Assembly (NCBI GenBank): GCA_032595675.1
Contig: JAVQMD010000001.1
Location: 2,264,640 to 2,328,639 of the forward strand
Origin: Candidatus Electrothrix rattekaaiensis
GTDB lineage: Bacteria; Desulfobacterota; Desulfobulbia; Desulfobulbales; Desulfobulbaceae
Length of the DNA stretch: 64,000 nt
Direction: 5' to 3'
The translations under genes were made by a program, and so were the position numbers. The notes beneath the pieces were generated by a model, which saw only the letters and a program-made list of their open reading frames with translations, had not been told where the DNA came from and ran no database searches. The stretch's first letter is position 1; each line of letters begins with the position of its first letter. Shown here one piece after another: positions 3,051 through 33,601 of the stretch.

Positions 3051-4495
3051 TGATTGATACCCCTGATGACACCATAGCCGCTATTGCCACAGCTCCGGGT
3101 ATCGGCGGCATCGGCGTTATCCGTATCAGCGGTTCCGATGCTGCTGTTGTTCTGCGCAGGCTTTTTATGCCGCATAGACCGGAAAGCCTGCATCCAGACG
3201 GTTCCCTGCCAAGTCATAGGCTCTGCTACGGCACGGTGAGGAATCGTCACGGGGCTGTCCTTGACGAGGTCATGGCCGTGTTTATGCGGGCTCCGTATAC
3301 CTATACCCGGGAAGACGTGGCTGAAATACAGTGTCACGGCAGTTATCTGGTGCTGCAGGCAATTTTAGCGGAGATTCTCGCTGTCGGAGCTCGGGCTGCT
3401 GAGCCCGGCGAATTCACCAAGCGGGCCTTTCTGGCCGGTCGTATTGATTTGACGCAGGCCGAGGCTGTTATCGACCTTCTTCAAGCTCAAAGTATGGGTG
3501 GGGTTGAATTGGCTGTGGGGCAGTTGCGGGGTGAGCTGTACGAGCGTATTGCCGCGATCCGGGATGCGCTTGTCGAATTGCTGGCAATCGTTGAATTGGC
3601 CCTTGATTTTCCTGATGATGAAACGGATATCCTTGTTGCTGACCATCTCATCGGACAAGTACAGGAGCAGGTCGTGGATCCCCTCCAGCTCCTCCTCGCT
3701 TTAGCGGATCAGGGCAGGGTGATTCGCGAGGGAGTAAAGGCGGTTATTGCCGGACGTCCTAATGTGGGGAAATCAAGCCTGCTGAATCAGCTACTTCAGG
3801 AAGAACGTGCTCTCGTTACCGAGGTTCCCGGAACAACACGGGATACCATTGAGGAACTTATTTCTGTGCATGGAATTCCTGTCCATCTTGTTGATACCGC
3901 AGGTATTCGGGATCATGAGGATGTGGTTGAGGAGCTGGGGATTGAGCGGGCCCGTCAGAAAATGCGGGAAGCAGACTTGGTTCTCTTTGTGGTTGATGTG
4001 AGTCAAGGGCTGACTGAGATTGACCAACGTTTATACGCCTCGCTGGATGATCGCAAGAGGATCGTGATCCTCAATAAGATTGATAAAATAGATAAGATAG
4101 ATATCGCGGATAAGAGTACGGATGAAAATTCGAATGAGAATCTGTTGCATGAATTGAACGGCTTTTTCGGCGCAGTCCCTCTGGTGCGGACGGCGGCGAA
4201 CAAGGGTGTCGGGATCGCGGAATTGCGGGAAACGCTCTATCAGACCATAATCGGTGAAGAAGAAGAGATGAGCGAGCGGATTTCCTGTGCGCCGAATCTA
4301 CGCCATAAAATGATTTTGGAAAAGACGCTGACTGCCTGTTCCCAAGTCAAGGAAAGCTTACTGGCCGGAGCCCCTGCTGATCTGTTGGCTGTTGATCTGC
4401 GGGTTGCCTTGGATCATCTTTCTGATATTGTCGGGTTAACTACGCCGGATGATGTTCTTGATGTCCTTTTTAGTCGATTTTGTCTTGGGAAATAA
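3050..4495 (+). CDS. mnmE: tRNA modification GTPase MnmE
   Basis: 481 aa. With MnmG it makes the 5-carboxymethylaminomethyl modification of wobble uridine 34 in tRNA. The N-terminal folate-binding TrmE domain begins near residue 5 (DTIAAIATAPGIGGIGVIR). The GTPase core has G1 GRPNVGKS (235-242), switch TTRD, DTAG (G3) and NKID (G4). The C-terminal FCLGK holds the catalytic Cys of the family. A small oddity is a KIDKIDKID micro-repeat immediately after NKID, followed by a Ser/Asn/Asp-rich stretch; it looks like slippage inside a loop of the G domain. The ATG overlaps the jag stop (TGATG). Confidence 0.96.
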   Translation: MIDTPDDTIAAIATAPGIGGIGVIRISGSDAAVVLRRLFMPHRPESLHPDGSLPSHRLCYGTVRNRHGAVLDEVMAVFMRAPYTYTREDVAEIQCHGSYLVLQAILAEILAVGARAAEPGEFTKRAFLAGRIDLTQAEAVIDLLQAQSMGGVELAVGQLRGELYERIAAIRDALVELLAIVELALDFPDDETDILVADHLIGQVQEQVVDPLQLLLALADQGRVIREGVKAVIAGRPNVGKSSLLNQLLQEERALVTEVPGTTRDTIEELISVHGIPVHLVDTAGIRDHEDVVEELGIERARQKMREADLVLFVVDVSQGLTEIDQRLYASLDDRKRIVILNKIDKIDKIDIADKSTDENSNENLLHELNGFFGAVPLVRTAANKGVGIAELRETLYQTIIGEEEEMSERISCAPNLRHKMILEKTLTACSQVKESLLAGAPADLLAVDLRVALDHLSDIVGLTTPDDVLDVLFSRFCLGK

Positions 4496-4574
4496 CTCTG
4501 GCAGGTTTCCTTTGAAGCATTGTCTTAGAAGTAAAAAAAGTTGAACTGACACAGGGCAGGAAGTGCTTTTCTGC

Positions 4575-4604
4575 TTGACATTTATACCTGACACATTGTA
4601 GTAA
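4575..4604 (+). promoter_or_regulatory. Putative sigma-70 promoter ahead of the sulfur-carrier genes
   Basis: A perfect -35 hexamer TTGACA (4575-4580) is followed after 18 bases by TAGTAA (4599-4604), a fair -10. The position, about 100 bases before the ATG at 4709, fits a leader for the thiS-like gene. The intervening leader (4605-4696) shows no riboswitch that I recognise. This is by motif only. Confidence 0.45.
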
Positions 4605-4708
4605 GTATTATGTGGTTCTGTGTAGGCGTAAAGTTAACTGCTTTGTAATTATACGGAAAAATGGGTTGGATTTTGAGATAAAACCATAAGTTTTTTGGAG
4701 GAGAAATT

Positions 4709-4918
4709 ATGGAGATCAGATTAAACGGAGAGTCTCGTTTTATCGATCAGATAACGAAAATGAGCGTTGCCGGTCTGCTTGAAATGGAACAGGTGGCATC
4801 CCCTGAAATGGTAGCTGTGCAGCTGAACGGTGAGATCGTTGATCGGGGAACCTACCATAACACCATGATTGTGGATAGGAACGAGGTTGATTTCTTGTAT
4901 TTTATGGCAGGAGGTTGA
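4709..4918 (+). CDS. ThiS/MoaD-like sulfur carrier protein
   Basis: 69 aa ubiquitin-like sulfur carrier. The protein starts MEIRLNGE and ends FMAGG, so the activatable Gly-Gly is already the C-terminus and needs no trimming. A strong site TTGGAGGAGA lies 8 or so bases before the ATG. In this family the C-terminal glycine is adenylated by a ThiF/MoeB-type enzyme and turned into a thiocarboxylate that donates sulfide. The next genes encode an E1-like enzyme, a JAMM peptidase and a sulfite reductase. That resembles the CysO and HcyS type sulfur-assimilation clusters more than a thiamine operon, since no thiG or thiH is present. Thiamine synthesis is not excluded. Confidence 0.85.
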   Translation: MEIRLNGESRFIDQITKMSVAGLLEMEQVASPEMVAVQLNGEIVDRGTYHNTMIVDRNEVDFLYFMAGG

Positions 4919-4936
4919 TTGGCTCCTTGGCACGAA

Positions 4937-5001
4937 TTGTAGGGGCGAACCTATGTGTTTGCCCTCTTATATCGGGCAGACACGCAGGTCTGCCCCTACA
5001 A
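4937..5001. repeat. REP-like large inverted repeat
   Basis: Arms at 4937-4964 and 4974-5001 pair at 23 of 28 positions around a 9-base loop. Both ends carry the TTGTAGGGGC / GCCCCTACAA sequence. It lies between the sulfur-carrier gene and its E1-like enzyme. Related short palindromes with GTAGGGGC or GGCAGAC..GTCTGCC occur at 13449, 17831 and 24088. It could act as a processing or attenuation hairpin inside the operon. Confidence 0.7.
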
Positions 5002-6459: not shown

Positions 6460-8883
6460 ATGATACATTATGCGTTGCCGCCGTCCTTGGAGAACGATAT
6501 CTTTCGTTTTGAACAGGAGTTTGTAGAGTTTAGGGCAGGACGATTACATGAAACCGCATTCACGGCCAAGCGAGTGAAAATGGGGGTTTACCTTGAAAGG
6601 AATCGGTCAACCTACATGTGCCGTATTCGCTGTAGCGGAAATATAATTACCCCTAAGCAGCTCGCCAGTGTTGCGTCCCTTGCCAAAACATATGGCAACG
6701 GCAAGGTCCATGTGACCACAAGGGCAGAAATGCAATTGTATAGGATTGAGGAAGGAGACGTTATCCCTGTCCTGCGAAAACTGAAAGAGATCGGCCTATC
6801 CTGTAAAGGTGGTGGCGGGAACTCTGTCCGCAATCTTATTGCCAATTATGATTCTGGAATCAGCACCAAGGAAGTATTTGATGTGCAGCCCTGCCTTCTG
6901 GCTCTGACGGAACGTTTGCTCAGAGAGTCTGACAGCTGGGAACTTCCGAGAAAAATGAAGATAGCCTTCAGTTCCCTTTCCGAGGGGGAAGCTTTTGGAT
7001 TTATTCAGGATATCTGTTTTATGGCCCAGCTGAATGCCGAAGGGAAACAGGGGTTCAGGGTCTATGTCGGGGGCGGCTTAGGGGCATACCCAAAGGTCGG
7101 CGTGCAGTTGCATGAATTTGTTCATCAGGAAGAAGTGTATAATGTGGTGAGAGCGGTTAAAAATATGTTCCATCTTTATGGAAACCGCAGAAATAAGCAT
7201 CGCAACCGTATAAAATTTCTACTTCATGATGATCTTGGCACCTCTGCCTTTCGTACCTATTATCGCCAGGAATTGAATAAGGTGCTTGAGCATGGGTATG
7301 CGAAGTTGAATGTTGGGACTGTCGATAACACGGAAAATGTAAAGAAAGACATTTCGTTAGTTCCTGAGAGCGAGGAGTCAGACGATTTTCGAATCTGGAA
7401 AAAAAGGCATGTTGTCAGGCAGCGGCAGAAGGGATTATGTCAGATTAAATTATCGCTTTTTTCAGGAGATCTGTCTGCGGAAGATTGCAATGCGCTGGAA
7501 GAATTTCTTCGCCCTTTTGGTGACAATACCTTGCGCCTTGGTACGGATCAGAATCTGTACCTTATTAATATTCCAGAGAGGTTCTTGGCTAATGTGTACA
7601 AAGAAATAATGGGGTACAATACCTTGAGCGATAGACCTAGGCTCTATGGTAATCTGGTAGCCTGTGCTGGCAGTCAGGGCTGTCAGGTCGGTCTTACAGC
7701 ACCCAAAGCGGTTTCAGAGGTTTTTTTAAACTATCTGGATACAGTTGCTGCTGCTGATTTCTGTCCTCCCGCTGATATGATGATACGTATCAGCGGTTGT
7801 CCGAATGCATGTACCAATCACTGGATAGCTGATCTCGGTTTTTACGGCAAGGTGCGGAGGGTGGCTGGCTATCTGATTCCTACGTATAATGTCCTTGGTA
7901 ACGGAGGCGTGTACGGGGGAACGCTGAGAATCGCTGAGAAAGTGGGCTGGGTACATTCCTATGATCTTCCTCGGTTTATCACTGAAGTGATGCGTCGTTA
8001 TGCCAACTTTAAGGAGAAGTCTGAAAGCGTTGTCGATTTTCACGATTATTGGCGCAGCGGCGGCAAAGATATTATTACGGAGTTATGCGTTTCCGGATAT
8101 AATGATATTCCTACCTTTGCCGAAGATAAGAATTATTATTTTGATCATGGGGCTGACCAACTTTTTTCCCTGAAGGGTGTCGGTCATGAGGAATGTTCTG
8201 CCGGGATCTATGACATCATTAATGTTGATGACAAGATTGTCAGGAAAAATCTCCTCCAGCTGGTAGCTGAGAAAGAGTTAGATGATAATTCGTTAGATAT
8301 CTTGCTCCGCAGTACCTTGTTCCATGCCGCTCGAATGCTTCTCGTAACTCGGGGCGAAGAACCGAAAGCAGAGGCAGAGGTCTACAGCTTATTCACCCAG
8401 CATTTCTTGGATACCGGCCTTGTTGCAGAGGTTCATCGTCCTCTTATTGTGTCAGCCAGCCAGGCCAATAAGGTTCAGGCTGGTGTTGATTCTTTCTTCG
8501 AACATAAGGAGCAAATTATCGCTTTTGGCGAGGAGCTTACAGCACTGTATGGGAACATGGATAATACCATGCGGTTTCCTGGCGAGCGCGAAAATATGGT
8601 GATCAAGGTCGCCAATCAGAAGGATGAGTCAAGTTTTACCTCTGTTGCGCAAAAGGGGCGACCGGACAGGTTTAAGGATTTGAGCGGTGTCAAATGTCCA
8701 GTGAATTTTGCGCAGATTAAGATGCAGCTCTTTGCTATGAGCTCCGGTGAAACCCTGGAGGTTATTTTAGATGACGGTGCGCCTATTGAGAATGTTCCTA
8801 TATCGATTACATCAGAGGGACATAACATACTTTGCCAAGAAAAAAACGGAGAGCAGTGGACGGTTTTGATCCAAAAATCCTGA
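6460..8883 (+). CDS. Siroheme sulfite (nitrite) reductase fused to a C-terminal TusA domain
   Basis: 807 aa. Two NIR_SIR ferredoxin-like half-domains and two siroheme/[4Fe-4S] domains fill residues 1-560. The cluster ligands are Cys402, Cys408 (CAGSQGC), Cys447 and Cys451 (SGCPNAC). A linker of about 150 residues follows, then a TusA-type domain at about 732-807 with its sulfur-carrying Cys746 in SGVKCPV. The ATG is preceded by GAGGAAATC. The likely reaction is six-electron reduction of sulfite to sulfide for assimilation, with the TusA domain receiving or passing on the sulfur. Assimilatory nitrite reduction is the alternative. It is distinct from DsrAB. The sulfur-carrier neighbours support sulfite. 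Confidence 0.87.
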   Translation: MIHYALPPSLENDIFRFEQEFVEFRAGRLHETAFTAKRVKMGVYLERNRSTYMCRIRCSGNIITPKQLASVASLAKTYGNGKVHVTTRAEMQLYRIEEGDVIPVLRKLKEIGLSCKGGGGNSVRNLIANYDSGISTKEVFDVQPCLLALTERLLRESDSWELPRKMKIAFSSLSEGEAFGFIQDICFMAQLNAEGKQGFRVYVGGGLGAYPKVGVQLHEFVHQEEVYNVVRAVKNMFHLYGNRRNKHRNRIKFLLHDDLGTSAFRTYYRQELNKVLEHGYAKLNVGTVDNTENVKKDISLVPESEESDDFRIWKKRHVVRQRQKGLCQIKLSLFSGDLSAEDCNALEEFLRPFGDNTLRLGTDQNLYLINIPERFLANVYKEIMGYNTLSDRPRLYGNLVACAGSQGCQVGLTAPKAVSEVFLNYLDTVAAADFCPPADMMIRISGCPNACTNHWIADLGFYGKVRRVAGYLIPTYNVLGNGGVYGGTLRIAEKVGWVHSYDLPRFITEVMRRYANFKEKSESVVDFHDYWRSGGKDIITELCVSGYNDIPTFAEDKNYYFDHGADQLFSLKGVGHEECSAGIYDIINVDDKIVRKNLLQLVAEKELDDNSLDILLRSTLFHAARMLLVTRGEEPKAEAEVYSLFTQHFLDTGLVAEVHRPLIVSASQANKVQAGVDSFFEHKEQIIAFGEELTALYGNMDNTMRFPGERENMVIKVANQKDESSFTSVAQKGRPDRFKDLSGVKCPVNFAQIKMQLFAMSSGETLEVILDDGAPIENVPISITSEGHNILCQEKNGEQWTVLIQKS

Positions 8884-8991
8884 CAATTTTACCTGGAAAT
8901 GAAATAATATGTCAAATATATCAAGAAGATCAACTTGCGGAGATGAAAAAGTAAACACTTCTCCCTTCCCCTCATTGAGAATCAACACGTT

Positions 8992-21803: not shown

Positions 21804-24077
21804 ATGCAGAATAGTACAAGTGTCGGGCTCAAACAACTTCGTCTCTGGTGCGCGGCAGCATTAATATTCTGGTCGCTTCTCCTTAACGGCTCCCTCTGCC
21901 TTTATGTCAAACATGAATGGCAAAGTGTAGAATTTATAGGAAAAAAAATAGGACTAACTGCCCTCAACAAAGACTATGTCTACGAATTATGGAATGCCCA
22001 TAACGGCGGTGTCTACGCCCCGGTGAATAACAGGAATCAACCGAATCCCTATTTGAGCGGTGTTGCGGACAGGGATATTGTCACGCCAAGCGGAAAACAG
22101 CTCACCTTAATCAACCCCGCCCATATGACCCGTCAGGCATACCAACTCGAACAGGAAATATATGGGGTCGGCGGCCATACCACCAGTCTTGATACGGTTC
22201 GACCGGAAAACGCACCGGATGACTGGGAGCGAGAAGCCCTGCTTTCTTTTACTCTGGGTAAGAAAGATGCTTCAAAACTGATCACAAAAGGCGATAAGAC
22301 CTTTATGCGGGTTATAATGCCAGCAATCACCCAGGAAAGCTGCCTCCAATGCCATATGCGAAAGGGCGATCAGGTCGGTGACATTCGCGGTGGGATCAGT
22401 ATAACCTTCCCTATCGACGGCATCGTGGAGCTCTTTCAACAGCAATTCAAAACAACTGCTCTGTATCATTTGTTAATTTATCTTATAGGGATAACCGGCC
22501 TAGTGGTCTTTTATGTGCAAACCAGCAGGCAGATGAAAAAACGAACAGCTATTGAGAAGCAGTTACGGCGGCAAACAGAAGAATGGCAAAACACCTTTGA
22601 TGCTATTCCGGATATTATCACTCTTCAGGATAGTGAAATGCGTATCATCCGGGCGAACAAGGCAACATATGAGTTTTTCCAGGCAAGCCCTGATGAACTT
22701 GTCGGCTCCGCCTGCCACAGTCTGTTTCAGGAAGAAACGACGGCCTGCCCCGGCTGCCCGGGAATACGCTCAATCGTTGACGGACACCAACATTGCGGCA
22801 CGGTTGAACATGAAATTTTGGACAAATTCTTTCATATCTGCTCAGCCCCTGTTCTGGACGAACAGGATAAATTTCAGTACATTGTCTATATCGCCCGTGA
22901 TATAACGGATAAAAAAAAGCTGGAAGAAGAACTTTTTCAGTCCCGGAAGATGGAAGCCATTGGCACCCTTGCCGGAGGAATTGCCCATGACTTCAATAAT
23001 ATTCTTGCTGCAATCCTGGGATACAGCGAAATAATCCAGCTGTCTCTGCCAGAGGGAAGTCCTCTTGAACATGATTTAAACCAGATCATTCTTGCAGGCA
23101 ATCGGGCAAGCGATCTCATTAAACAAATCCTCACCTTTAGCAGGAAAAAGAAACAGCAGAAAGAAGAGCTCCATATCGACAGGACCGTTCAAGAGGCTGT
23201 CAAGATGATGCGCTCTTCCTTGCCAACAAGCATTGATATCCAGGAAAATATCGACGAGAAATGCGGCGTTGTGCTTGCCGACCCGACCAATATCCATCAA
23301 ATTATTTTAAATCTCTTCACAAACGGTTTTCATGCCATCGGCAATAAACAGGGCACCTTGCAACTCAACCTGAAACCGATGGAGCTTCCCCCAGAACGTG
23401 TCGCTGATAAGCCGGGGGTAAAATCAGGTTCCTTTGTTCGACTGACTGTGCAGGACAGCGGCCAAGGAATGGATGAAATCACCATGAACCGCATCTTTGA
23501 TCCCTATTTTACAACCAAGGAGCAGGGTACCGGGACTGGATTAGGTTTGGCGGTTATCCACGGTATCGTGGAGGATTACAAAGGATTTATCGAGGTTGAA
23601 AGCGTTACCGGGCAGGGAACAGCCTTTCATGTCTATTTGCCGACCGTGCATAAAAAAAGCAAGGAAAAGCCCAGCACAGCTCCTCGCAGGCCGCTTCAAG
23701 GGGGCAACGAACGAATCCTCTTTGTTGATGATGAGGTGGACATCACCCGTATCAGTCATTCCTTGCTGAGCAATCTCGGCTACAGGGTCACTGTTGAAAC
23801 GCAGAGCCTCAAGGCACTCAAAAAAATTCAAAAAGATCCCAGTGCCTTTGACCTGCTGATCACAGACCACACCATGCCAGGACTCACGGGAGCTGATCTT
23901 GCCCGTTCCGTCCTGCAACTCAGGCCGGACCTGCCTATCATCCTCTGCACAGGGTACACCGCCGCCTTTTCCAAACAAGAGGCCCACAAAATCGGCATTA
24001 AGAAGTATGTTATCAAACCATTATCCACAAAAGAACTGACCGATATTGTGCGGGACGTTCTTGACGAACAGGCGTGA
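21804..24077 (+). CDS. Hybrid histidine kinase with periplasmic c-type haem sensor
   Basis: 757 aa. Order: membrane helix (about 13-34); periplasmic Tll0287-like (DUF3365) domain (about 40-215) ending in the haem motif CLQCH (Cys180, Cys183, His184); second helix (about 220-239); PAS domain (about 260-370) with a Cys-rich insert (CPGCPG); HisKA with phospho-His395 in GGIAHDFNN; HATPase with DSGQGMD and GTGTGLGLAV; and a C-terminal receiver with Asp688 (LLITDHTMPG). The haem probably senses redox state or a gas such as NO, CO or oxygen. No dedicated output gene is adjacent, although the next genes on the opposite strand are also kinases. Confidence 0.9.
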   Translation: MQNSTSVGLKQLRLWCAAALIFWSLLLNGSLCLYVKHEWQSVEFIGKKIGLTALNKDYVYELWNAHNGGVYAPVNNRNQPNPYLSGVADRDIVTPSGKQLTLINPAHMTRQAYQLEQEIYGVGGHTTSLDTVRPENAPDDWEREALLSFTLGKKDASKLITKGDKTFMRVIMPAITQESCLQCHMRKGDQVGDIRGGISITFPIDGIVELFQQQFKTTALYHLLIYLIGITGLVVFYVQTSRQMKKRTAIEKQLRRQTEEWQNTFDAIPDIITLQDSEMRIIRANKATYEFFQASPDELVGSACHSLFQEETTACPGCPGIRSIVDGHQHCGTVEHEILDKFFHICSAPVLDEQDKFQYIVYIARDITDKKKLEEELFQSRKMEAIGTLAGGIAHDFNNILAAILGYSEIIQLSLPEGSPLEHDLNQIILAGNRASDLIKQILTFSRKKKQQKEELHIDRTVQEAVKMMRSSLPTSIDIQENIDEKCGVVLADPTNIHQIILNLFTNGFHAIGNKQGTLQLNLKPMELPPERVADKPGVKSGSFVRLTVQDSGQGMDEITMNRIFDPYFTTKEQGTGTGLGLAVIHGIVEDYKGFIEVESVTGQGTAFHVYLPTVHKKSKEKPSTAPRRPLQGGNERILFVDDEVDITRISHSLLSNLGYRVTVETQSLKALKKIQKDPSAFDLLITDHTMPGLTGADLARSVLQLRPDLPIILCTGYTAAFSKQEAHKIGIKKYVIKPLSTKELTDIVRDVLDEQA

Positions 24078-24138: not shown

Positions 24139-25932
24139 TTATTCTTCCGTTGCAGCAGGAAGCTCTATGTAAACGGTTGTACCCTCTCCCTTTGTCGATT
24201 CAATATCTATATATCCCTGATGCTGATGTATGATTGAAGAGGCGATGGTCAACCCCAGTCCCATCCCTTTACCGTTTCCTCGTACTTTACTTGAGAAATA
24301 CGGGTCAAAAACATTGGCAAGATCCTTGCGATCTATACCGCCACCTTGATCCTGAATGGTTATCCTGATGTATTGTCCTTGATTCCGCTCAGGATGGTTC
24401 TGCCCTGAACGGGTTATATTTTCAGCGGTCAAGGTGATTATCCCCTCAGTACCCATCGCTTCGTGAGCATTAAGAAACAATTCACGCAGGGCCAAATCCA
24501 GCTGACCGGGATCAATATATCCCATCCATAAATCCGGTGAAAAATGAAACTCTGGAACGATATCAGAACCTGCAAGAACAGCAGTGCAGCTGGCGGCGAC
24601 AAGGTCACCAAGAGGAACTGCTTGGCGTGCAGGCGGATCAAAATTAGAAAAAAGCAAAAACTTATGGGTCAGATCCTTTGCCTGAACAGAGGCCTCAATT
24701 GCATAATCAAGAAATCTTGAAGCCCTGTGCCCCGACGGTATGTTCATGGCGGCAAGCTCAACATTACCGACAATGGCCATCAGTAGATTATTGAAGTCAT
24801 GGGCTATACCTCCTGCCAAGGTTGCGACCAATCCCATCTTGCTGTTTTTCAGAGAGCTTGCCTCCAATTTCTTCCGACGGGTGATATCAATACAGTACTC
24901 TATGATCTGTGTCTTTTGCTCATCCCCCTGTTGAGTCGCCACCGGATGGGTATGCACTTCCAGGATCTGTTTATTTCCCCGGCTATCAAAAATGCTATGC
25001 TCAAGCAGGCCCGGTTCATTATGATACAGGGCATCCTGCAAAGGACAGGGAAGGCCCTTTTCATGACAGGGTTGATTCAACCCGTGCAAATATTGATAAC
25101 ATTTTTCGCCTTCAGGTACAGAGGAGCCCCCCTCCCGTGTCGCCTTATTGGCAATGGCAACCGTATAATCAGCAATGTTCACCACCATGAAAGGATGGGG
25201 AAGAGAATTGATGACAGTGTGGAGAAAACTATTCTGCTCAACAATGCGGGCACTTCGTCGAGCCACCTCTTCTTCCAGCATATCCCGGTGCTGCCGTATC
25301 TGTTCTTCGGCTTTTTTCCGTTCCTCAACTTCTTTTTGCAGGAGGATATTTTTTTGATCCAGCTCCGCTGTCCGCTCTTTCACCTTATCTTCCAGCATAT
25401 CCCGCTGCATGGCCAAGGCCGCTAAAATATGCTCCCGTTCCATAGCAATATGCCATTTTTGAATAAGGGCACTGGCACTCTGCCGTATTTCTATGGATTC
25501 AAAAGGTTTTTTTATAACAAGAAGGTTATCTTTGGAGACCAAGGAATTACTGATATCCTGCCAGGAATAATCCGAATATGCTGTTATAATAACATATTGA
25601 AGCCGATCATCCTCCATCTGCATTTTTTTGATGGTCTGCAGCCCGTCAAGACCCGGAGGTATCCGCATGTCAACAAAGGCAAGGGCATACGGTTGTTCTT
25701 CCACTCTGGCCTGACGAACCATCCTGATTCCCTCGTCGCCCTGAAAGGCCGAATCCACCCGGATCATCGCATGGTGAGCCTGTGCAGCAGGCTTGCCGAT
25801 AATATCCGAAAGCAGGTCGTCAAAATCATCAGGCGCGGTTGTCGGTCGCAGAATTTTTTTAATATCGTTGTGAATCTCCGGGTTATCGTCAATCACCAAA
25901 ACCCGCCGAACCCTGTGTGCTATCGCTGTCAC
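24139..25932 (-). CDS. Receiver-PAS-histidine kinase (soluble)
   Basis: 597 aa with no membrane segment. An N-terminal receiver (about 10-150) has VLVIDDNPEI and the phospho-Asp88 in FVDMRIPPG, with an atypically long alpha1-beta2 stretch. A coiled coil with KERTAELDQKN and a second EEQIRQHRDMLEEEV helix (about 170-240) follows. Next come a PAS domain with Cys-rich insert (CYQYLHGLNQPC), HisKA with GGIAHDFNN, and HATPase with DQGGGID and GMGLGLTIAS. A kinase with a receiver at its N-terminus fits the second step of a phosphorelay. Its ATG overlaps the stop of the DUF1638-like kinase by four bases, so that kinase is the likely partner. Confidence 0.88.
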   Translation of the reverse strand: MTAIAHRVRRVLVIDDNPEIHNDIKKILRPTTAPDDFDDLLSDIIGKPAAQAHHAMIRVDSAFQGDEGIRMVRQARVEEQPYALAFVDMRIPPGLDGLQTIKKMQMEDDRLQYVIITAYSDYSWQDISNSLVSKDNLLVIKKPFESIEIRQSASALIQKWHIAMEREHILAALAMQRDMLEDKVKERTAELDQKNILLQKEVEERKKAEEQIRQHRDMLEEEVARRSARIVEQNSFLHTVINSLPHPFMVVNIADYTVAIANKATREGGSSVPEGEKCYQYLHGLNQPCHEKGLPCPLQDALYHNEPGLLEHSIFDSRGNKQILEVHTHPVATQQGDEQKTQIIEYCIDITRRKKLEASSLKNSKMGLVATLAGGIAHDFNNLLMAIVGNVELAAMNIPSGHRASRFLDYAIEASVQAKDLTHKFLLFSNFDPPARQAVPLGDLVAASCTAVLAGSDIVPEFHFSPDLWMGYIDPGQLDLALRELFLNAHEAMGTEGIITLTAENITRSGQNHPERNQGQYIRITIQDQGGGIDRKDLANVFDPYFSSKVRGNGKGMGLGLTIASSIIHQHQGYIDIESTKGEGTTVYIELPAATEE

Positions 25933-27818
25933 TCTGTTTCCCCCTGTTTTGCTACTGTTACAGGAAGCCGCATTCTGAACCTTGCCCCCTGTTCCAAACC
26001 TGCGCTTTCCCCTGTCAGGCTTCCGCCCATTTCCACCGTCAGATTGGCGGCATTATGGAGACCGAAGCCATGCCCTCCTTTTTTCGTTGTAAAACCAAAG
26101 GTAAACGCCTGTTGTAAAATATTCCCCTGCATTCCCTTTCCGTTATCGCTTACCTCGACAACCACCTCCTCTTGATCGGCAATCGGATATATGCGCAACA
26201 AAATCTTCTTCTGTTCAACCGAGATCCCGTCAAAGGCATCCACCGCATTTCGAATAAGATTATTCACAACCTGTAAGATTTTATGCGGTTCTCCATAGAT
26301 ATTCTGTTCAAAATCGTAATGACGCTCTACAACAATCTCTTGTTCCTTCAAATCCTTCTGAAAAAGTTCCAGACTCTCTTCAAGCAGGGATGTCAGATTT
26401 ATCTGCTCTGTAAAATTAATACGTTTTGCTGTATCCTGCTGGGCCCGGATAATCTCGGCAACGCGGTGGATATGGTGCAGTTGACGGGTCGCTTCATTCA
26501 TCACAACATTCCGTTCCCCGATCAATTTCTCCGAAAGCTTCGCAAGGTAGGCTGGTAGCCTTTTCCCCCTGGGATCGTGAGCGAAAAAATTCTCTTGATC
26601 ATCCTCATGGTCCTGTATCAACGCGACAATATCAGGCAGACTGGTACAGCTACTCTGTTGGACAATTTCCCGGATCTGTTCCGAAGAAACCGAAATACTG
26701 TTCAGGGTGTTCCCCACATTATGCAACACCTCGGTGGCGACCTCGGCCTTCCCGGCAAGGTGCGATGTGCGCACCAGTTCCCGCAAGGTACGCACATGCT
26801 TAATAGACAGAGCACAGACTTCCGAAACAGCAAGGGCTGTATTAATATACTGGTTAATATACAGAGGATGGGCGACCTGAGAAATAAGAAGTAAGGCAGA
26901 GGCTCTCTCTCTTCCGCCTATACGCAAGAAAAAGCTCCCCTGCTCTTTGTTCAGCAAAAAATATCTTTCCTGCCCGGCATAAAATTGCTCTGTCTGAAGT
27001 TGCTCTTCAGTGGTCAGACCAGGGGCCTGATCAAAATCCACCCCTGCTTTGCTCACCGGTATAAAGTATATTTTTTTCGGATCAAACAGCATGGTGAAGA
27101 GTTCAATAATGGCGGAAACAACTTCCGGTTTTGATTTTACTCTGGTCACCATACGGATGAGGTCCAAGGTCATTGCCGCTTCGGCAGCTTGGCGTGCAAC
27201 CTCTTCTTTTTGGCGTGTCAGTTCCTGCTGTTGATGATCCGCTATAATGTTCGACAGGGCAAGACCGAGAAATTCCAAACCAATGGGCAATGTCTCAGCA
27301 GGCAGCCGGAGAAAAGCACTGAACTCAGCAAGATGCCGCTCAGACTCCTGATCTATGCCTGTATCAAGCAAAAGCAGTTTTCGCAAAGATTCTCCGAAAA
27401 ATTTAATCGCTGTGGGCCGGTCAAACCCCCAAGCCGAGACATGTGTCCGCCAGCGACAAAGCCAGCCCGGACTCAAGAGATAAGTTCCGTTCTGCTGGAC
27501 AGCATCGACAAGGGTCGAGCTACACAACAGGTGGTGGCATTGCTCCTTTCGATAAACCCGACATCGGGGAGATTCCTCCGGCGGTACAACCAGCTCACGC
27601 AAACAATAGCTGCCAAACACCGCCACGATATCAGCCTCTGAACAGTTTACGATATCAGCGATTTCCGGCCAAGTCATGGGAGCGGAACAGCAATGCGAAG
27701 GAAATGATCGCACTTCTGCTTGCGTAAGCCCCTGCTGCTGCACAGCCGCCTCTATTTCAGGGAAAAAATTTTCACATGCAATAAAGCAGCACGTCGATTT
27801 CAAAGCTCTTCTCCTCAT
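25929..27818 (-). CDS. Histidine kinase with N-terminal DUF1638-like domain and GAF-like middle
   Basis: 629 aa, soluble. Residues 1-190 follow the DUF1638 outline: CFIACENFFPEI at the start, FGSYCLREL, several Cys/His pairs (SHCC, CRVYRKEQCHHLLC), LLSPGWLCRW, WGFDRPTAIKFFGE, LLLLDTGID and RLPAETLPIGLEFL. DUF1638 proteins are known from corrinoid-dependent methyl-transfer loci. A GAF-like region (about 220-345) comes next, then a kinase core with phospho-His366 in ATEVLHNVGN and an ATPase with SDNGKGMQGN and GHGFGLHNAAN. The ATG overlaps the upstream UroD-like gene by four bases and the stop overlaps the next kinase. That packing ties the sensor to the corrinoid genes. The DUF1638 assignment is by eye. 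Confidence 0.78.
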   Translation of the reverse strand: MRRRALKSTCCFIACENFFPEIEAAVQQQGLTQAEVRSFPSHCCSAPMTWPEIADIVNCSEADIVAVFGSYCLRELVVPPEESPRCRVYRKEQCHHLLCSSTLVDAVQQNGTYLLSPGWLCRWRTHVSAWGFDRPTAIKFFGESLRKLLLLDTGIDQESERHLAEFSAFLRLPAETLPIGLEFLGLALSNIIADHQQQELTRQKEEVARQAAEAAMTLDLIRMVTRVKSKPEVVSAIIELFTMLFDPKKIYFIPVSKAGVDFDQAPGLTTEEQLQTEQFYAGQERYFLLNKEQGSFFLRIGGRERASALLLISQVAHPLYINQYINTALAVSEVCALSIKHVRTLRELVRTSHLAGKAEVATEVLHNVGNTLNSISVSSEQIREIVQQSSCTSLPDIVALIQDHEDDQENFFAHDPRGKRLPAYLAKLSEKLIGERNVVMNEATRQLHHIHRVAEIIRAQQDTAKRINFTEQINLTSLLEESLELFQKDLKEQEIVVERHYDFEQNIYGEPHKILQVVNNLIRNAVDAFDGISVEQKKILLRIYPIADQEEVVVEVSDNGKGMQGNILQQAFTFGFTTKKGGHGFGLHNAANLTVEMGGSLTGESAGLEQGARFRMRLPVTVAKQGETE

Positions 27819-28873
27819 TCGTTATGGAAAACAAGAGGATACCTCCCCCATTTATGCACGGCATCCGAGACGGCTGTTAATACTTCTTCGCCGACCTGCC
27901 AGGGAATCTCACCGTTGTCGGCAAGGATAAAACCACCGCCCGGCGCGGCTACGGCAATGATTTCTTTCACGGTCTTCTCAACCTGTTCCGGTGTCCAACG
28001 ACGCATCTCAACCCCGTTCAGATTGCCCAGGATCGTCAGTCTGCCCTGACAGGAAGCCTTTAACTCGGCCAGATCATCCATGATACTCACGCCGATTATC
28101 GACGTTCCGGTAGCGATAACGTCCTCAATAACAGGCAGGGTGGCGGCTGTTGCCATGTGGATTGCCGACGGGCCGTTGATCCGGGCCAAGGTGTTTCGTG
28201 CTATCCTAAAGCCTGTCTCACGATGCACCCCGGCGGTTATCGTGGGCGAAAGCAGGGCGTCAAAATAACAGACAACCGTTGCTCCGGCCCGAATTTGGGC
28301 ATTGGCCCAAGCAACACAAAACTCCTGATTCACCTCCATAAGCCGATTGAACAATTCTGGTCGCTCATGCATCAGCTCAATATAGGCGGAAAAGCCCATC
28401 TGCATGACAGGCAGAGAAAAGGGAGAGACTACTATGCCCATAATCGGCACTTCATCTCTTACTTTTTCTTTCAGCATCAAAATACTCTCCAGCATCCTGA
28501 CAAGACAAGGAGTGTCGGACAGTTCCGGAACCTGTAAGGAGAGAATATCTTTTTCCGTTTTGATAATTGGTTCGCCGCTGTTCGGGGGGCCAGCCTCATA
28601 CCAGATGACCTCACCGCCAAAGGCCTTTACGGCCATTGCCGCAGCACAAAAAGGATTCACGCAGTCGTGCCGATATTTCTTCAGCATCCGTAACTGTCCT
28701 TCCGCCACGTACTCGGCTTTGGAAAAATACTCTTTGATACTCAAGCCCAGTTCTCGGGCACCGTGGATGGTCAGCAGCAGAGAGAGAGGAACTCTGTCCG
28801 GTTCCTGATGCCCCAAGGTTGTCAGGACGCGCTCCATTGAAGTCATTGCTGATTTTTCGTTTCCGGCGATCAT
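27815..28873 (-). CDS. UroD/MtaA-family corrinoid methyltransferase-like protein, copy 1
   Basis: 352 aa. It has the uroporphyrinogen decarboxylase fold pattern of MtaA/CmuA methyltransferases: TSMERVLTTLGHQEPDRVP at the start, PFSLPVMQMGF, and EIPWQVGEEVL near the end. The zinc site of active MtaA-type enzymes (His-x-Cys plus a later Cys) appears changed: His239-Met-Ala241 replaces H-x-C, and ADNGEIP stands where a GCG-type Cys is expected. It may bind a methylated substrate without catalysis, or use other ligands. It ends overlapping the DUF1638-kinase start and follows the corrinoid gene by 22 bases. Copy 2 at 29677-30741 is a close paralogue. Confidence 0.82.
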   Translation of the reverse strand: MIAGNEKSAMTSMERVLTTLGHQEPDRVPLSLLLTIHGARELGLSIKEYFSKAEYVAEGQLRMLKKYRHDCVNPFCAAAMAVKAFGGEVIWYEAGPPNSGEPIIKTEKDILSLQVPELSDTPCLVRMLESILMLKEKVRDEVPIMGIVVSPFSLPVMQMGFSAYIELMHERPELFNRLMEVNQEFCVAWANAQIRAGATVVCYFDALLSPTITAGVHRETGFRIARNTLARINGPSAIHMATAATLPVIEDVIATGTSIIGVSIMDDLAELKASCQGRLTILGNLNGVEMRRWTPEQVEKTVKEIIAVAAPGGGFILADNGEIPWQVGEEVLTAVSDAVHKWGRYPLVFHNE

Positions 28874-28895
28874 ATGCTCATATTATCTGGTCATA

Positions 28896-29540
28896 TTACT
28901 TAGTGTTTCCTTTCACACAGGAGGTAATCGCAGCAATCGCTTCCACAGCATTTGCCCCCATGGCATCGGCCCCCACTTCTTTCCAGAGCAACGGATCAAA
29001 ACGGAACGGTGCTCCGCCGACAACAATCCGGGTCGAAGAGCCAGCTTCCACAAGCAAGCGTTTTACTTCCTTAACCTGCAGCGCGGAGCGAAGCATGAGG
29101 GTGGAGATAAGAACGATCTCTATAGAATCGTCGCGGACCTTCTTGGCCAGCTCATGAGGAGTTACCCGGCCATAGTCATGAAAAACATACCCGCCAGCCC
29201 GCAAACAGGAGGAGATAATAATTTTTCCCAAAAGATGATAGTCTTCAAGAACGGCTATCGCCATAGGCGGGTGGTCGGGATGTTTCAGAGAAGAGGACGG
29301 TGGCGCATGGGCCATCAGTTCTTCACAGATTCTGCTGCTCATATATACCTGAGCCAAGGCAACCGTGCCTTCTTCCCATCCCCTGCCGATTATCTCCAAA
29401 GCCGGGAGGATGAGATGATCAACTGTTCGGGACATTGACGTCTGTTCCCGGACCGCGTTGAATATCTTTTCCGCTCCTAACCGATCAACCCTGACAAGTT
29501 GATCGACTAACTCCAGGACTTCCTTGTTTTCCGATATCAC
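28896..29540 (-). CDS. Cobalamin (corrinoid)-binding methyltransferase protein
   Basis: 214 aa, the two-domain length of MtaC/MtbC-type corrinoid proteins. The N-terminal helical cap (about 1-85) has the GRGWEEGTVALAQVYMSSR segment. The Rossmann-like B12 domain has the base-off/His-on motif Asp100-x-His102-x2-Gly105 (LEDYHLLGK), LISTLMLRSALQ and IVVGGAPF. It would carry a methyl group on cobalt between methyltransferases. It lies between two UroD-like genes and heads the block that runs into two histidine kinases. Confidence 0.9.
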   Translation of the reverse strand: MISENKEVLELVDQLVRVDRLGAEKIFNAVREQTSMSRTVDHLILPALEIIGRGWEEGTVALAQVYMSSRICEELMAHAPPSSSLKHPDHPPMAIAVLEDYHLLGKIIISSCLRAGGYVFHDYGRVTPHELAKKVRDDSIEIVLISTLMLRSALQVKEVKRLLVEAGSSTRIVVGGAPFRFDPLLWKEVGADAMGANAVEAIAAITSCVKGNTK

Positions 29541-29676
29541 GGACTAATATCTCCAACAAATCGTTCATTTACGGCTACGCCGCCAAGTGTAAGCTTTTTT
29601 GTACCCGCTGTACAAATTTTTCAACCATCGCATATTATACAGGTAACTCAAAGCTGTCAACTAATGATCGTGATAT

Positions 29677-30741
29677 TCACGTGTAAAGATCGCGGAGCGG
29701 ATAAGTCCCCCATCTATGCACGACCTCTGAAATTGCCATCAACACCTCTTCACTGACCTGCCAGGGAATCTCGCCATGGTTATCAGCAAGGATAAATCCG
29801 CCCCCGGCTCCAGCCTTACGTATGGCCTCTCTGACCTTGTCCTCAGTCTGTTGCGGAGTCCAGCGACGCATTTCAACTCCGTTGAGATTACCCAGTACCG
29901 TCAATCTGCCTCGGCATGCCTGTTTTAACTCGGCCAGATCTTCCATAACGCTCACCCCGATGGCTGCTGTCCCGGTGGCGGCTATATCGTCAAGAACAGC
30001 CAAGGTTTTCCCTGAAGCCATATGGATAGCTGTCGGCGACTGAATTCGCGCCAAGGTCTCCCGCGCTATCCTGAAGCCTGCTGTAAGATGCGTTCCCGGC
30101 GCGGTCATAGTCGGCGAGGTCAGGGGGTCAAAATAACAGACAGCGGTTACTCCGGCCCGGATCTGGGCATTGGCCCAGGCAACGCAGAACTCCTGATTCA
30201 CCTTCATGAGATGCTGAAAAAGATCAGGTCGTTCATGCATCAGCTCAATATAGGCAGGAAAGCCCATCTGCATAATCGGCAGGGAAAAAGGAGAAACCAC
30301 CGTGCCCATAACCGGTACTGCGCCCTTTGCTTTTTCTTTCAAGGACTGAATAATGTCCAACATTCTGACAAGACAGGGCGTGCTGTATATTTCCGGTGCT
30401 TGCAGAGAGAGGATATCCTGTTCCGTTTTGATGATCGGTTCTCCGCAGTTGGGCGGCCCGTCCTCAAACCAGATGACCTCTCCGCCAAAGGCTTCCGGTT
30501 CCATTGCTGTATAACCAAAAGGATTCAGGCAGTCGTGGCCGTATTTTCGTCGCATGCGCAACTGGCCTTCCACCACATACTCGGCTTTGGAAAAATACTC
30601 CTGAATAGTCAAGCCCAGCTCTTTGGCACCGTGCATGGTCAATAAAAGGAAAAAAGGAACCCGATCCGGTTCCTGATGTCCCATGGTCGTGAACACGCGT
30701 TCCATAGAAGTCATTGTCACGCTCGGTTGTTCGTCTGTCAT
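29677..30741 (-). CDS. UroD/MtaA-family corrinoid methyltransferase-like protein, copy 2
   Basis: 354 aa, clearly a paralogue of copy 1 (shared TSMERVFTTMGHQEPDRVPF, ELGL.I.EYFSKAEYV and SPFSLPIMQMGF elements). Again the usual H-x-C is H-M-A (IHMASGKT). The late ligand region reads ADNHGEIP, with a His where copy 1 has none. The corrinoid gene follows after 136 bases on the same strand. The duplication could provide two substrates or one active and one regulatory subunit. Confidence 0.82.
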   Translation of the reverse strand: MTDEQPSVTMTSMERVFTTMGHQEPDRVPFFLLLTMHGAKELGLTIQEYFSKAEYVVEGQLRMRRKYGHDCLNPFGYTAMEPEAFGGEVIWFEDGPPNCGEPIIKTEQDILSLQAPEIYSTPCLVRMLDIIQSLKEKAKGAVPVMGTVVSPFSLPIMQMGFPAYIELMHERPDLFQHLMKVNQEFCVAWANAQIRAGVTAVCYFDPLTSPTMTAPGTHLTAGFRIARETLARIQSPTAIHMASGKTLAVLDDIAATGTAAIGVSVMEDLAELKQACRGRLTVLGNLNGVEMRRWTPQQTEDKVREAIRKAGAGGGFILADNHGEIPWQVSEEVLMAISEVVHRWGTYPLRDLYT

Positions 30742-30895: not shown

Positions 30896-33268
30896 CTATT
30901 GATTAAACCCAATGGCCCGAAACAGCCAGAACTCCTTGCCAATCATATCCGCCAACAAAGGCATGACCTGATCCGGTTCAGCATGGAGATCATGATTTTG
31001 GATATCCGAGATAATCTGATGCACTAACTCAAAATGTATCCGCTGCGGGCGATCCATAAGAATGAATCGGCCATTCTCGGTGCTGTTGAGTTTTTCGATC
31101 TCCCCCTTACTCACCTTGCTTATTATCTCCGGCTCCCGAATATCTCGAAACAGGGCAAAGCCGATATCCTTATGATCAACAACCAGCTGGTTAAAATTTT
31201 TGATTCTCGGGGCAAAGGTGTAAGCATCCGTGTGGAGAAAGGCCACAGCTGCTTTTTTAGGGGCAGCATGCTGCGCCCCCTGCTGTTTGCTCTGAATAAC
31301 CACATGCTCAGGCAGGCGTCTCCTTCCCAGACGCAGGTAATCGAGACGAAACCCGTACAACGGCTGGAGGGCATCAAGAATCAGGCGCAGTTTTCCCAGG
31401 TCATCAGTATCGCTAATAATATTCTTTCGACTATAGGCAGCGGCCAACTGTCCCTGTTTCTGCTCAATATAGCCCACAACCTCCGTGGGCACCGGATTGA
31501 GCGGTACGACATCAGGCTTCTTTTCCAGGTGCAGATGCTTCCGTAACTCGGCAATTTCCTGCCGCAGTTCCTGCAAAGTCCGATCAACCCTTGCCTCAAA
31601 ACTCAAGGTATTAGTCGGCAGAGGAATTCCTTCTACTTTATAGCGGTAATAATCTGCTGCACAATTCAGGACACTGCGGATGGAACGATGACTGAGGATA
31701 TTGTCCAATTCATCCGGGTCAAACAGGGCCTCGCTTTCCAGATCAACCTCAGCCAGTTTGAGGGTCAGCATTTTTGCCAGCACCTCCTTATCCGGTAATT
31801 CCAGAGCCATCTGATACTGGCCCATCCGTTCCGTGACCGAGGCATCAAAAAGCTGCCGGAAATAACGCCAGCGATCAGGAAAGAGGTTAAACAGCATCAG
31901 GCAGTTGGGCACATGGGTGAACAGTTCCTTGACAGCCTCCCCAAAACGCAGTAACAGGGCCTGATTATACTTAAGTCCTTCCAGCTGATCAAAAACAATG
32001 ATCAGGGGTTCATCCACAACCGAGAGCCTGCCAAACACCACCATAGCCTGAAGGGCAAAGTCTTCCCGGCTGAGTTCCTCTTCCCAGTTGCTCAGGCGGA
32101 CTGCCTGAAGTTCACTCTCCAGCAGATGCTGACCAGCCAGCCAACGACGGACCAGCTCTTTTTTATTGGCATCGGAATAACGACAAAAACGAATCAGGCC
32201 GGTGATGATATTGCAGGCATAATCGCTGAATCCGTAGCTTTCCTGCCACCATTGTAGGGTCTGGCGTTCGATATAATCCCAGTTACGCCGCTTGGTTTCC
32301 GAGCCCTCTTTCCCCAATACCTTGTAGATATTCAATTGGCCCTGCGACAAACCGTGCAGAATATTCTGATCCTTTTTACTCAGGTTCTTCCTTCCCCTGA
32401 GAGTCTTCATCACAATTTTTGAAAAACTGCGACCCAGGAGATATTCCAGCTGCGAGTACTCGGTATCCGGGATCGGCTCGACAAAGGACTCCAGCATTCG
32501 ACTGTAAATATGATAGAAAACCGCCTCCTCATGATTGGGCTGGCGAATAAAGAAGAGGCGATTGGTCTTCATGGTATGGCGAGCCAAACGCATCATAAGA
32601 TGGGTCTTGCCGTTGCCTGCCACGCCCAGCACTACTGCACCCCGGCTCTGCTGGTTACTGTCTCCCCTGATTTCTTCGATCAGATTGGTGATGCGGATAA
32701 AGGCATCACAGTGGATATCATCCAGATCAATATGCTGCTGAAAGGGGCTGTCGACCCGGGTATTGCTAAAGGGATTTGTGAGGACTCCTTTGCTGTTTTT
32801 ACTGTGCATCTCGTGCTGCATCTTGCGATAAAGTTGATGGGTGAACAGGGCATCATAACGGGCACTGTGGGCAGCTTGGATATTAAAATACCGTTTTTTC
32901 ACCCTCAGGCGCAAGGATTTACTGAGATATTCGAGAGAATACGATGACAGGCCTGGGAAAAAACTCTTTGCTGATTCCCAGGTGCAGACGAAATGAAAAT
33001 CCGGCCAAGACAGCTCTGCTGCTACAAAACTCTTACGCAGAACCTGTTCATCATGGTGGGCATAATGACAGACAAGCATCTTGTTTTCCGCAAATCTAAT
33101 CAGGTGTTGCAAGAGCCCGGCAAGCGGATAGAGATCATGCCTGACAGACTCGTGTCCTTGAACAAAGCCCTCAAAGAGCAGCTTTCCCTGGGCATCAAGG
33201 ATGGCGATTTCGTTCAGAGTATCAAAACCTTCTGTATCAATAACAATAAAGTCAGAGGAAGAGAACAT
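30896..33268 (-). CDS. DEDDh exonuclease fused to a P-loop ATPase
   Basis: 790 aa from the ATG at 33268; an in-frame TTG at 33355 would extend it by 29 residues, and neither has a clear ribosome binding site. The N-terminal third is a DnaQ-like 3'-5' exonuclease: IVIDTEG (Asp11, Glu13), CHYAHHDEQ (Asp73) and HSARYD (His134, Asp139). The middle has an ATPase with Walker A GVAGNGKTH (about 215-222) and Walker B LIIVFDQLEG (about 422-430), in a STAND/AAA-like layout. The C-terminal third has a short coiled coil (VDRTLQELRQEIAELRKHL) and no domain I know. I do not recognise the whole protein. Single-gene, stand-alone nuclease-ATPase fusions often act in antiphage defence or DNA repair. Confidence 0.75.
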   Translation of the reverse strand: MFSSSDFIVIDTEGFDTLNEIAILDAQGKLLFEGFVQGHESVRHDLYPLAGLLQHLIRFAENKMLVCHYAHHDEQVLRKSFVAAELSWPDFHFVCTWESAKSFFPGLSSYSLEYLSKSLRLRVKKRYFNIQAAHSARYDALFTHQLYRKMQHEMHSKNSKGVLTNPFSNTRVDSPFQQHIDLDDIHCDAFIRITNLIEEIRGDSNQQSRGAVVLGVAGNGKTHLMMRLARHTMKTNRLFFIRQPNHEEAVFYHIYSRMLESFVEPIPDTEYSQLEYLLGRSFSKIVMKTLRGRKNLSKKDQNILHGLSQGQLNIYKVLGKEGSETKRRNWDYIERQTLQWWQESYGFSDYACNIITGLIRFCRYSDANKKELVRRWLAGQHLLESELQAVRLSNWEEELSREDFALQAMVVFGRLSVVDEPLIIVFDQLEGLKYNQALLLRFGEAVKELFTHVPNCLMLFNLFPDRWRYFRQLFDASVTERMGQYQMALELPDKEVLAKMLTLKLAEVDLESEALFDPDELDNILSHRSIRSVLNCAADYYRYKVEGIPLPTNTLSFEARVDRTLQELRQEIAELRKHLHLEKKPDVVPLNPVPTEVVGYIEQKQGQLAAAYSRKNIISDTDDLGKLRLILDALQPLYGFRLDYLRLGRRRLPEHVVIQSKQQGAQHAAPKKAAVAFLHTDAYTFAPRIKNFNQLVVDHKDIGFALFRDIREPEIISKVSKGEIEKLNSTENGRFILMDRPQRIHFELVHQIISDIQNHDLHAEPDQVMPLLADMIGKEFWLFRAIGFNQ

Positions 33269-33601
33269 TGAAGAACCGAGGAGGAGGGAGAAATGGGTAC
33301 TTTTTTGGCAGGTATCCTTATTCCATAAAAGGAGTTTATTTTTCAAGGATACCAATCGCTATCAATACTTATTCTTCTTTGTTGACTTATTTCCACAAGC
33401 ATGTTCTGTATATTTTTTATACAGAAAATTATTCTAAAATGATCAGTTTAACAGTACAGGCAATCTTTGAAATACGTTCTCAATTGAGCCTAGCAAATTC
33501 ATTACCTTAGGCCAAAAAATCTCAACCAATCAACCTAAATAATTGTAAACAATTAGCGCCAGGAAAGTATCCAAAGCTAAAAAAATACCGAACCATTCAT
33601 T

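Follow-up and report, generated by a model that had tools for sequence, protein, structure and literature searches.

Organization of the locus

The stretch of Candidatus Electrothrix rattekaaiensis DNA analysed here (64,000 nucleotides of contig JAVQMD010000001.1, positions 2,264,640 to 2,328,639; the window) carries five consecutive minus-strand genes, in the order UroA, COR, UroB, DHK and RHK. The conserved core of the locus is a trio consisting of a corrinoid protein (COR), a URO-D-like protein, and a signalling protein that joins DUF1638 to a GAF domain. Going by record titles, core gene order is found across eight phyla, in bacteria and methanogenic archaea, and this recurrence is more than chance would account for. 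The locus is best read as a sensory module that is built around a corrinoid and descends from a corrinoid methyltransferase, in which the corrinoid's state would be set by way of a donor bound to the URO-D-like protein and would be read by DUF1638; we put the probability of this reading at roughly 60%.

UroA (29677..30741, minus strand) is a URO-D/MtaA-like protein with the signature H-x-A ... DNHGEIP in place of the H-x-C ... C of MtaA. It is followed, after 136 bp, by COR (28896..29540, minus), which has a helical cap (with Trp55) and a B12-binding domain with DxHxxG, SxL and GG motifs; Pfam finds B12-binding and B12-binding_2 in it. A 22-bp gap separates COR from UroB (27815..28873, minus), an Electrothrix-specific duplicate of UroA that does not have the signature histidine of DNHGEIP. 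URO-D (PF01208) is matched in both UroA and UroB at E ~1e-51. DHK (25929..27818, minus) comprises DUF1638 (residues ~1-185), GAF (~205-345) and a histidine-kinase core with its HATPase at 511-621. RHK (24139..25932, minus) has a receiver (Asp88) and then a histidine kinase (His378), with Pfam matches to Response_reg, HisKA and HATPase_c. COR and RHK both start with GTG. Beyond RHK lies a convergent hybrid kinase (21804..24077, plus strand) made up of a Tll0287-like domain (CxxCH at 180), PAS, HisKA, HATPase and a C-terminal receiver.

An earlier note on this DNA had described the five minus-strand genes as a set, and the list of open reading frames (ORFs) bears out its coordinates, order and strands; its labels (two UroD-like proteins, a corrinoid protein and a DUF1638-like kinase) agree with Pfam (URO-D, B12-binding, DUF1638 and HATPase_c). 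Other details need adjusting. Both of the 4-base overlaps that it reported exist; that of UroB and DHK (27815-27818) reads ATGA, and that of DHK and RHK (25929-25932) reads GTGA, not ATGA, because RHK starts with GTG. Its DUF1638 and kinase in DHK stand, with a GAF domain between them that it had left unnamed. The receiver and kinase of its "receiver-PAS-kinase" are present in RHK; Pfam finds no PAS at E<=0.01, so that the middle part is unconfirmed. The set itself holds as regards its conserved trio core, and the note missed the convergent Tll0287 kinase, a sixth gene and third kinase.

Distribution of the trio

A search of genome contigs with COR yielded 38 loci, 29 of them with COR, UroD and DUF1638 complete as judged by ORF calls, similarity to the window proteins and the DUF1638 profile. 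(DUF1638 was rechecked by domain profile in every third gene; phmmer or Pfam alone missed it in L039, L135, L149 and L150.) Among the hosts named in the record titles are Methanolobus, Methanomicrobiales, Chloroflexi, Bacteroidota, Gammaproteobacteria, Brocadia, Nitrospinota, Myxococcales and Desulfobacterota. Brocadia (L008) has a single protein in which COR and UroD are fused, identical in two genomes. Three incomplete loci (L033, L035 and L036) are truncated by contig ends, and COR is also frame-broken in L036. Four others (L037, L038, L040 and L041) have distant CORs and no UroD or DUF1638 matches. Kinase-group ORFs occur in the same locus as the distant corrinoid protein in L037, L038 and L040, and further B12-kinase pairings may exist.

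The earlier note had proposed looking for the five-gene order in other Desulfobacterota. The trio recurs widely; UroB is lineage-specific, and RHK follows the trio in Desulfobulbaceae-type loci and is not part of the core elsewhere. In the window's family the COR search matches 42 of 73 genomes, only 15 of them at E < 1e-30 and the others weakly; the nearest named relative by COR is Candidatus Electrothrix marina, a cable bacterium (82% identity).

A further test starts from neither COR nor the kinases: the motif DNHGEIP, common to most trio UroDs, was sought as a degenerate DNA pattern. It is matched in 3 of 395 Desulfobacterota genomes, the window's genome included, and a wider version of the pattern gives 16 sites in 15 of the 149 genomes of the order to which Methanolobus belongs. 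Outside the window's genome, all 18 of the UroD-signature sites lie in COR-UroD-DUF1638 order, and the domain profile confirms the DUF1638 of each (39 to 200 bits). Of the 16 methanogen sites, at least four coincide with COR-search loci (L140/L024, L141/L025, L142/L030 and L143/L028, with matching COR rows). Few genomes are matched and every one of these sites falls in a trio; the trio is therefore infrequent, yet its genes keep closely together. A search of the phylum with the whole kinase is uninformative, since all 297 genomes match, most of them through the common kinase core.

Clustering of 408 ORFs from the 38 loci, trio genes included, yields no shared metabolic neighbour. Other ORF families present in more than three loci mainly reflect a common neighbourhood of four Methanolobus loci, and three recurrent neighbour families that were scanned are housekeeping (elongation factor, MoaE and NadA).

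The corrinoid protein

The B12 motif is kept almost without exception in a set of 67 COR rows: D in 67, H in 66, G in 67 (DxHxxG), S in 67, L in 66 (SxL), and both G of GG in 67. (Only identical ORFs were removed from this set, and some rows are one gene cut differently, for example W_COR/L042, L024/L140 and L112/L182.) The axial histidine is absent from one row, which is a degenerate second copy in L185; this copy (8308-8967), upstream of a trio, has Phe in its place.

The best solved relative of the COR cap is CarH (E 5e-5), and the position of the CarH motif tryptophan is Trp in all 67 COR rows, unlike the Phe or Tyr of three aligned methyltransferase corrinoid proteins. COR could accordingly be imagined to bind adenosylcobalamin and to report light, or the supply of adenosylcobalamin or cobamide, to the kinase. 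CarH requires its Wx9EH motif (PMC9304148), however, and COR does not have the full motif: among the 67 rows the Glu position is V in 35, E in 23, I in 8 and N in 1, and the His position is Y in 66 and L in 1. A CarH-like sensor also leaves the URO-D protein and DUF1638 unexplained, and we consider it the least likely of the explanations weighed here. COR, at 214 residues, consists of the two B12 domains alone, with no N-terminal DNA-binding domain detected by Pfam.

DUF1638, GAF and exchangeable outputs

DHK contains the only PF07796 (DUF1638) match in its genome, at 35.5 bits against a cut-off of 27 (E 1e-8). Pfam scores in 14 genomes separate trio domains (31-54 bits) from other DUF1638 (82-158 bits), so the trio form is a distinct branch. 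Cys15 and Cys72 of DUF1638 are invariant in 28 of 28 rows, members encoded as separate ORFs included. The model of DUF1638 is confident (predicted local distance difference test, pLDDT, 94.5) and no fold relative is claimed for it; matches are weak, the best being a PrpR domain (2pju; E 9e-5, TM 0.42). A Phaeobacter DUF1638 gene is reported to have the fitness pattern of corrinoid methionine synthase genes, alongside a RamA-like protein, and its authors had no specific proposal for it (PMC5764234).

A Pfam scan of DHK calls no GAF. In a model of residues 1-345 (pLDDT 89.9), the 205-345 part matches the GAF of 3ibj (PDE2A) with Z 14.1 and root-mean-square deviation 2.3 over 133 aligned residues, and on this modelled structure DHK 205-345 is assigned a GAF fold. 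DHK has HATPase_c and no Pfam HisKA; its putative phospho-acceptor, His366, comes from a weak alignment to FixL.

The third gene was scanned in 22 loci. HATPase is present in 16 (in L009 it is in the next ORF) and HisKA in a cut ORF in L011; the output is GGDEF in two (L026 and L180). The kinases of L007 and L009 bear their own receiver. The simplest reading of this series is a sensory front end with exchangeable outputs. The earlier note had named kinases never adjacent to corrinoid/UroD homologues as an arrangement that would speak against a real link between them; the opposite is found, and adjacency is conserved.

The URO-D proteins

MtaA (4ay7) has a His-x-Cys ... Cys arrangement that we take to be its zinc site. 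Zinc in MtaA holds the acceptor thiol. Relative to MtaA, the HIC of the trio UroDs has become H-x-A/G/S, and the later Cys is replaced by the His of DNHGEIP. Cys is found at either of these positions in none of 51 distinct UroDs; the first His of H-x-C is kept in 48 of the 51. The DNHGEIP His is present in 44 of 45 non-UroB rows and in none of 6 UroB rows (one of which is cut by a contig end). In control UroDs from Brocadia's class that lie outside the clade, HIC and GC are kept in 6 of 6 rows (six of the 15 control loci L154-L168); both cysteines are also present in MtaA 4ay7. UroA and UroB match the NCBIfam model mtaA_cmuA (TIGR01463) over nearly its full length and score 104 and 97 bits, respectively, below its cut-off of 235.4. 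The zinc-motif controls also score below it (192-200 bits) and are therefore termed MtaA/CmuA-like.

In a quick tree, Electrothrix UroA and UroB form one clade (14 rows; Shimodaira-Hasegawa-like approximate likelihood ratio test, SH-aLRT, 99), and the UroB rows branch inside it as a sub-clade of their own (6 rows; 100), which makes UroB a duplicate that arose in Electrothrix. (The tree omitted five rows from represented genomes, L042 twice, L048 twice and L049; rows longer than 400 residues were trimmed to their last 352.) UroB is missing from L172 and L173, both Electrothrix genomes.

Elsewhere, members of the URO-D and COR families act as enzymes, and the locus might be a functioning methyltransferase set, running from donor through corrinoid to acceptor, with its expression under the control of the neighbouring kinases, which would be ordinary operon regulators and not readers of COR. 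The mec cassette, in which a kinase stands with a corrinoid protein and a protein of CmuA/MtaA type (PMC9768040), lends some weight to this explanation, as do the RACo homologues in the genome (three, outside the locus) and the conserved pocket signature of the UroDs. Against it stand the 51 of 51 UroDs that do not have the zinc-site cysteines and the want of a shared metabolic neighbour family among the 408 clustered ORFs. The MtaA/CmuA-like control loci, with COR and two UroDs, have no DUF1638 kinase within flanks of ~1.5 kb in 15 of 15 cases, and in the trio DUF1638 forms part of the signalling protein itself, joined to GGDEF as well as to kinases. A working methyltransferase set is unlikely, if the likeliest of the alternatives to a sensory module.

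Neighbouring kinases, variant loci and flanking genes

In Desulfobulbaceae-type loci RHK comes directly after the trio. Its receiver residues are intact (Asp15, Asp88, Thr117 and Lys142), and a relay from DHK to the RHK receiver may be proposed from gene order and these residues only. A convergent kinase is found beyond RHK in 10 of the 10 loci that extend to this point (L006, L169-L173 and L175-L178); six of the ten were scanned, and all have Tll0287, PAS, HisKA, HATPase and receiver, like the window copy. The convergent Tll0287 (heme-c) kinase thus belongs to the locus. Two loci from other genera of the window's family (L179 and L180) have neither RHK nor the convergent kinase by similarity. 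In L173, COR (4312-4964) and RHK (6937-8732) are each split into two frames, through sequencing error or decay.

Two distant variants keep the trio within longer rows of genes. L184 (199-6158), which comes from the same Desulfuromonadales genome as L021, comprises a PocR-PAS histidine kinase, COR, UroD, DUF1638 and a GAF kinase. L190 (2233-10144) has RACo, COR, UroD, DUF1638, a PAS kinase with receiver, and a receiver-kinase. The UroDs of both (rows L127 and L153) are without H-x-C. The RACo-type activase at the head of L190 suggests a corrinoid that goes through a Co(I) state, as happens in methyl transfer. A second set, with UroD, is present at 5023-10221 of L183, in the Parabeggiatoa genome of L007.

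These neighbours bear on a further possible explanation, in which the Co(I)/Co(II) couple, or binding of nitric oxide (NO) or O2 to the corrinoid, is itself the signal and DUF1638 recognises one form. DUF1638 has been linked with RamA-like activases and corrinoid reactivation (PMC5764234), RACo heads the L190 variant, and the Tll0287 kinase that adjoins the set in 10 of the 10 Desulfobulbaceae-type loci extending far enough has a domain that is reported to bind NO when it is fused to signalling modules (a 2026 preprint, PMC12889525). A redox or gas sensor leaves unexplained why nearly all loci retain a URO-D protein whose pocket signature is conserved, and L179 and L180, of the same family, have no Tll0287 neighbour; it is improbable, slightly more so than a working methyltransferase set.

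The five minus-strand genes may not all share a single transcript. The best promoter-like match, TTGACA-17-TAATAT (10 of 12 positions; 29632..29660, minus), is situated 5' of COR in the gap that separates it from UroA. A sigma-70 scan of the region gives 8 promoter-like sites compared with 8.4 in shuffled sequence, that is, no excess, and the promoter 5' of COR is therefore only a candidate. UroA, COR, DHK and RHK (the four that were scanned) have no match among PADLOC profiles. An 819-residue protein encoded at 30896-33355 of the window (minus) shows an exonuclease-like region together with weak matches to AAA/STAND NTPases; the PADLOC profiles DEDDh and PDC-S48 match it, and it is possibly a defence gene.

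A proposed corrinoid-reading sensory module

Sensing is favoured over catabolism, as the earlier note had supposed, because COR keeps its B12 motif, the UroDs have lost the MtaA zinc cysteines that the controls keep, and the output domain is interchangeable behind a conserved adjacency to kinase or cyclase. The sensory module can be thought of as working in the following way. COR would carry the corrinoid. The URO-D-like protein, which is without the zinc cysteines and retains its pocket signature, would bind a small ligand, most probably a donor of methyl or alkyl groups, and would thereby determine the corrinoid's state, whether alkyl-Co, Co(II) or Co(I). We infer that DUF1638, at the front of DHK, docks on COR and reads this state, the signal then passing through GAF to the output, which is here a histidine kinase. 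From there, in Desulfobulbaceae, the signal is likely to proceed to the RHK receiver, and it would be integrated with the convergent heme-c (Tll0287) hybrid kinase. An adenosyl or light signal is unlikely because Wx9EH fails in COR (Glu 23/67, His 0/67); a redox or NO signal is possible.

Several points weigh against the sensory module. L007 has no UroD next to its COR and DHK, and L031 has COR and UroD without DUF1638, a TPR protein coming next. Three of the 22 scanned third-gene ORFs (L014, L034 and L179) have no output domain. RACo is not found in the window's locus. The kinship of the COR cap is with a light receptor, CarH. The UroDs possibly have another metal site and residual catalysis, as the retained first His and the gain of DNHGE would allow. 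In favour of the module, pairwise distances in 22 loci correlate most strongly for COR and DHK (r 0.86, compared with 0.64 for COR and UroD and 0.61 for UroD and DHK; 0 of 2000 permutations reached any of these values), and the COR-DHK value is only consistent with contact, which it leaves unproven because linked genes share genealogy.

The more general proposition is that a previously undescribed class of B12-cofactor receptor exists, in which a corrinoid methyltransferase pair is read by DUF1638 and is plugged into kinases or diguanylate cyclases in archaea and bacteria; we hold this to be slightly better than an even bet. If it is correct, two-component and cyclic di-GMP (c-di-GMP) signalling would acquire a corrinoid-cofactor input, and the trio would be an example of a methyl-transfer enzyme becoming a receptor. 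DUF1638, reported to be needed for corrinoid-dependent methionine synthesis (PMC5764234), would gain a testable role in recognising corrinoid proteins. A clue would also be gained to what it is that cable bacteria and methanogens keep watch on in sediments.

Comparison with known systems

Among the titles and abstract openings listed in searches of open PMC papers for combinations of DUF1638, corrinoid, URO-D and kinase, none describes the trio; most subscription papers fall outside that range. The Tll0287/DUF3365 heme-c sensor domains are known as a separate family, and the same domain occurs in the sixth gene of the locus; its pairing with a corrinoid module was not found in the literature searched. 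CarH resembles the trio in placing a B12 protein in signalling and in having the cap that is COR's nearest solved relative. COR differs in having no DNA-binding domain, in its incomplete Wx9EH and in its kinase outputs.

Sensing of a corrinoid by a kinase has already been conceived, since it has been proposed for the Methanosarcina kinases MsmS, RdmS and MA4376, which are linked to corrinoid-dependent methyl transfer: the sensing site suggested for them is either a heme/corrinoid or a cysteine at the surface, and a title cited there concerns heme-binding GAF domains (PMC11619418). As far as that source describes them, no dedicated corrinoid protein, URO-D partner or DUF1638 is mentioned in connection with these kinases. 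The mec cassette for dichloromethane brings together a histidine kinase, a corrinoid protein and a CmuA/MtaA-family protein; in contrast with the trio, it is proposed to be catabolic, its kinase has a PocR domain, and the accessible portions of the report make no mention of DUF1638 (PMC9768040). In Phaeobacter corrinoid methionine synthesis DUF1638 stands beside a corrinoid protein, as it does here, whereas in the trio a kinase or cyclase begins with its DUF1638 domain (PMC5764234 for Phaeobacter). The MtaA/CmuA methyltransferases, with their MtbC/MtaC-type corrinoid proteins, share with the trio a URO-D family member and its corrinoid partner. Unlike them, UroA and UroB fall below the subfamily cut-off, and the trio UroDs are without the zinc-site cysteines and are linked to signalling outputs.

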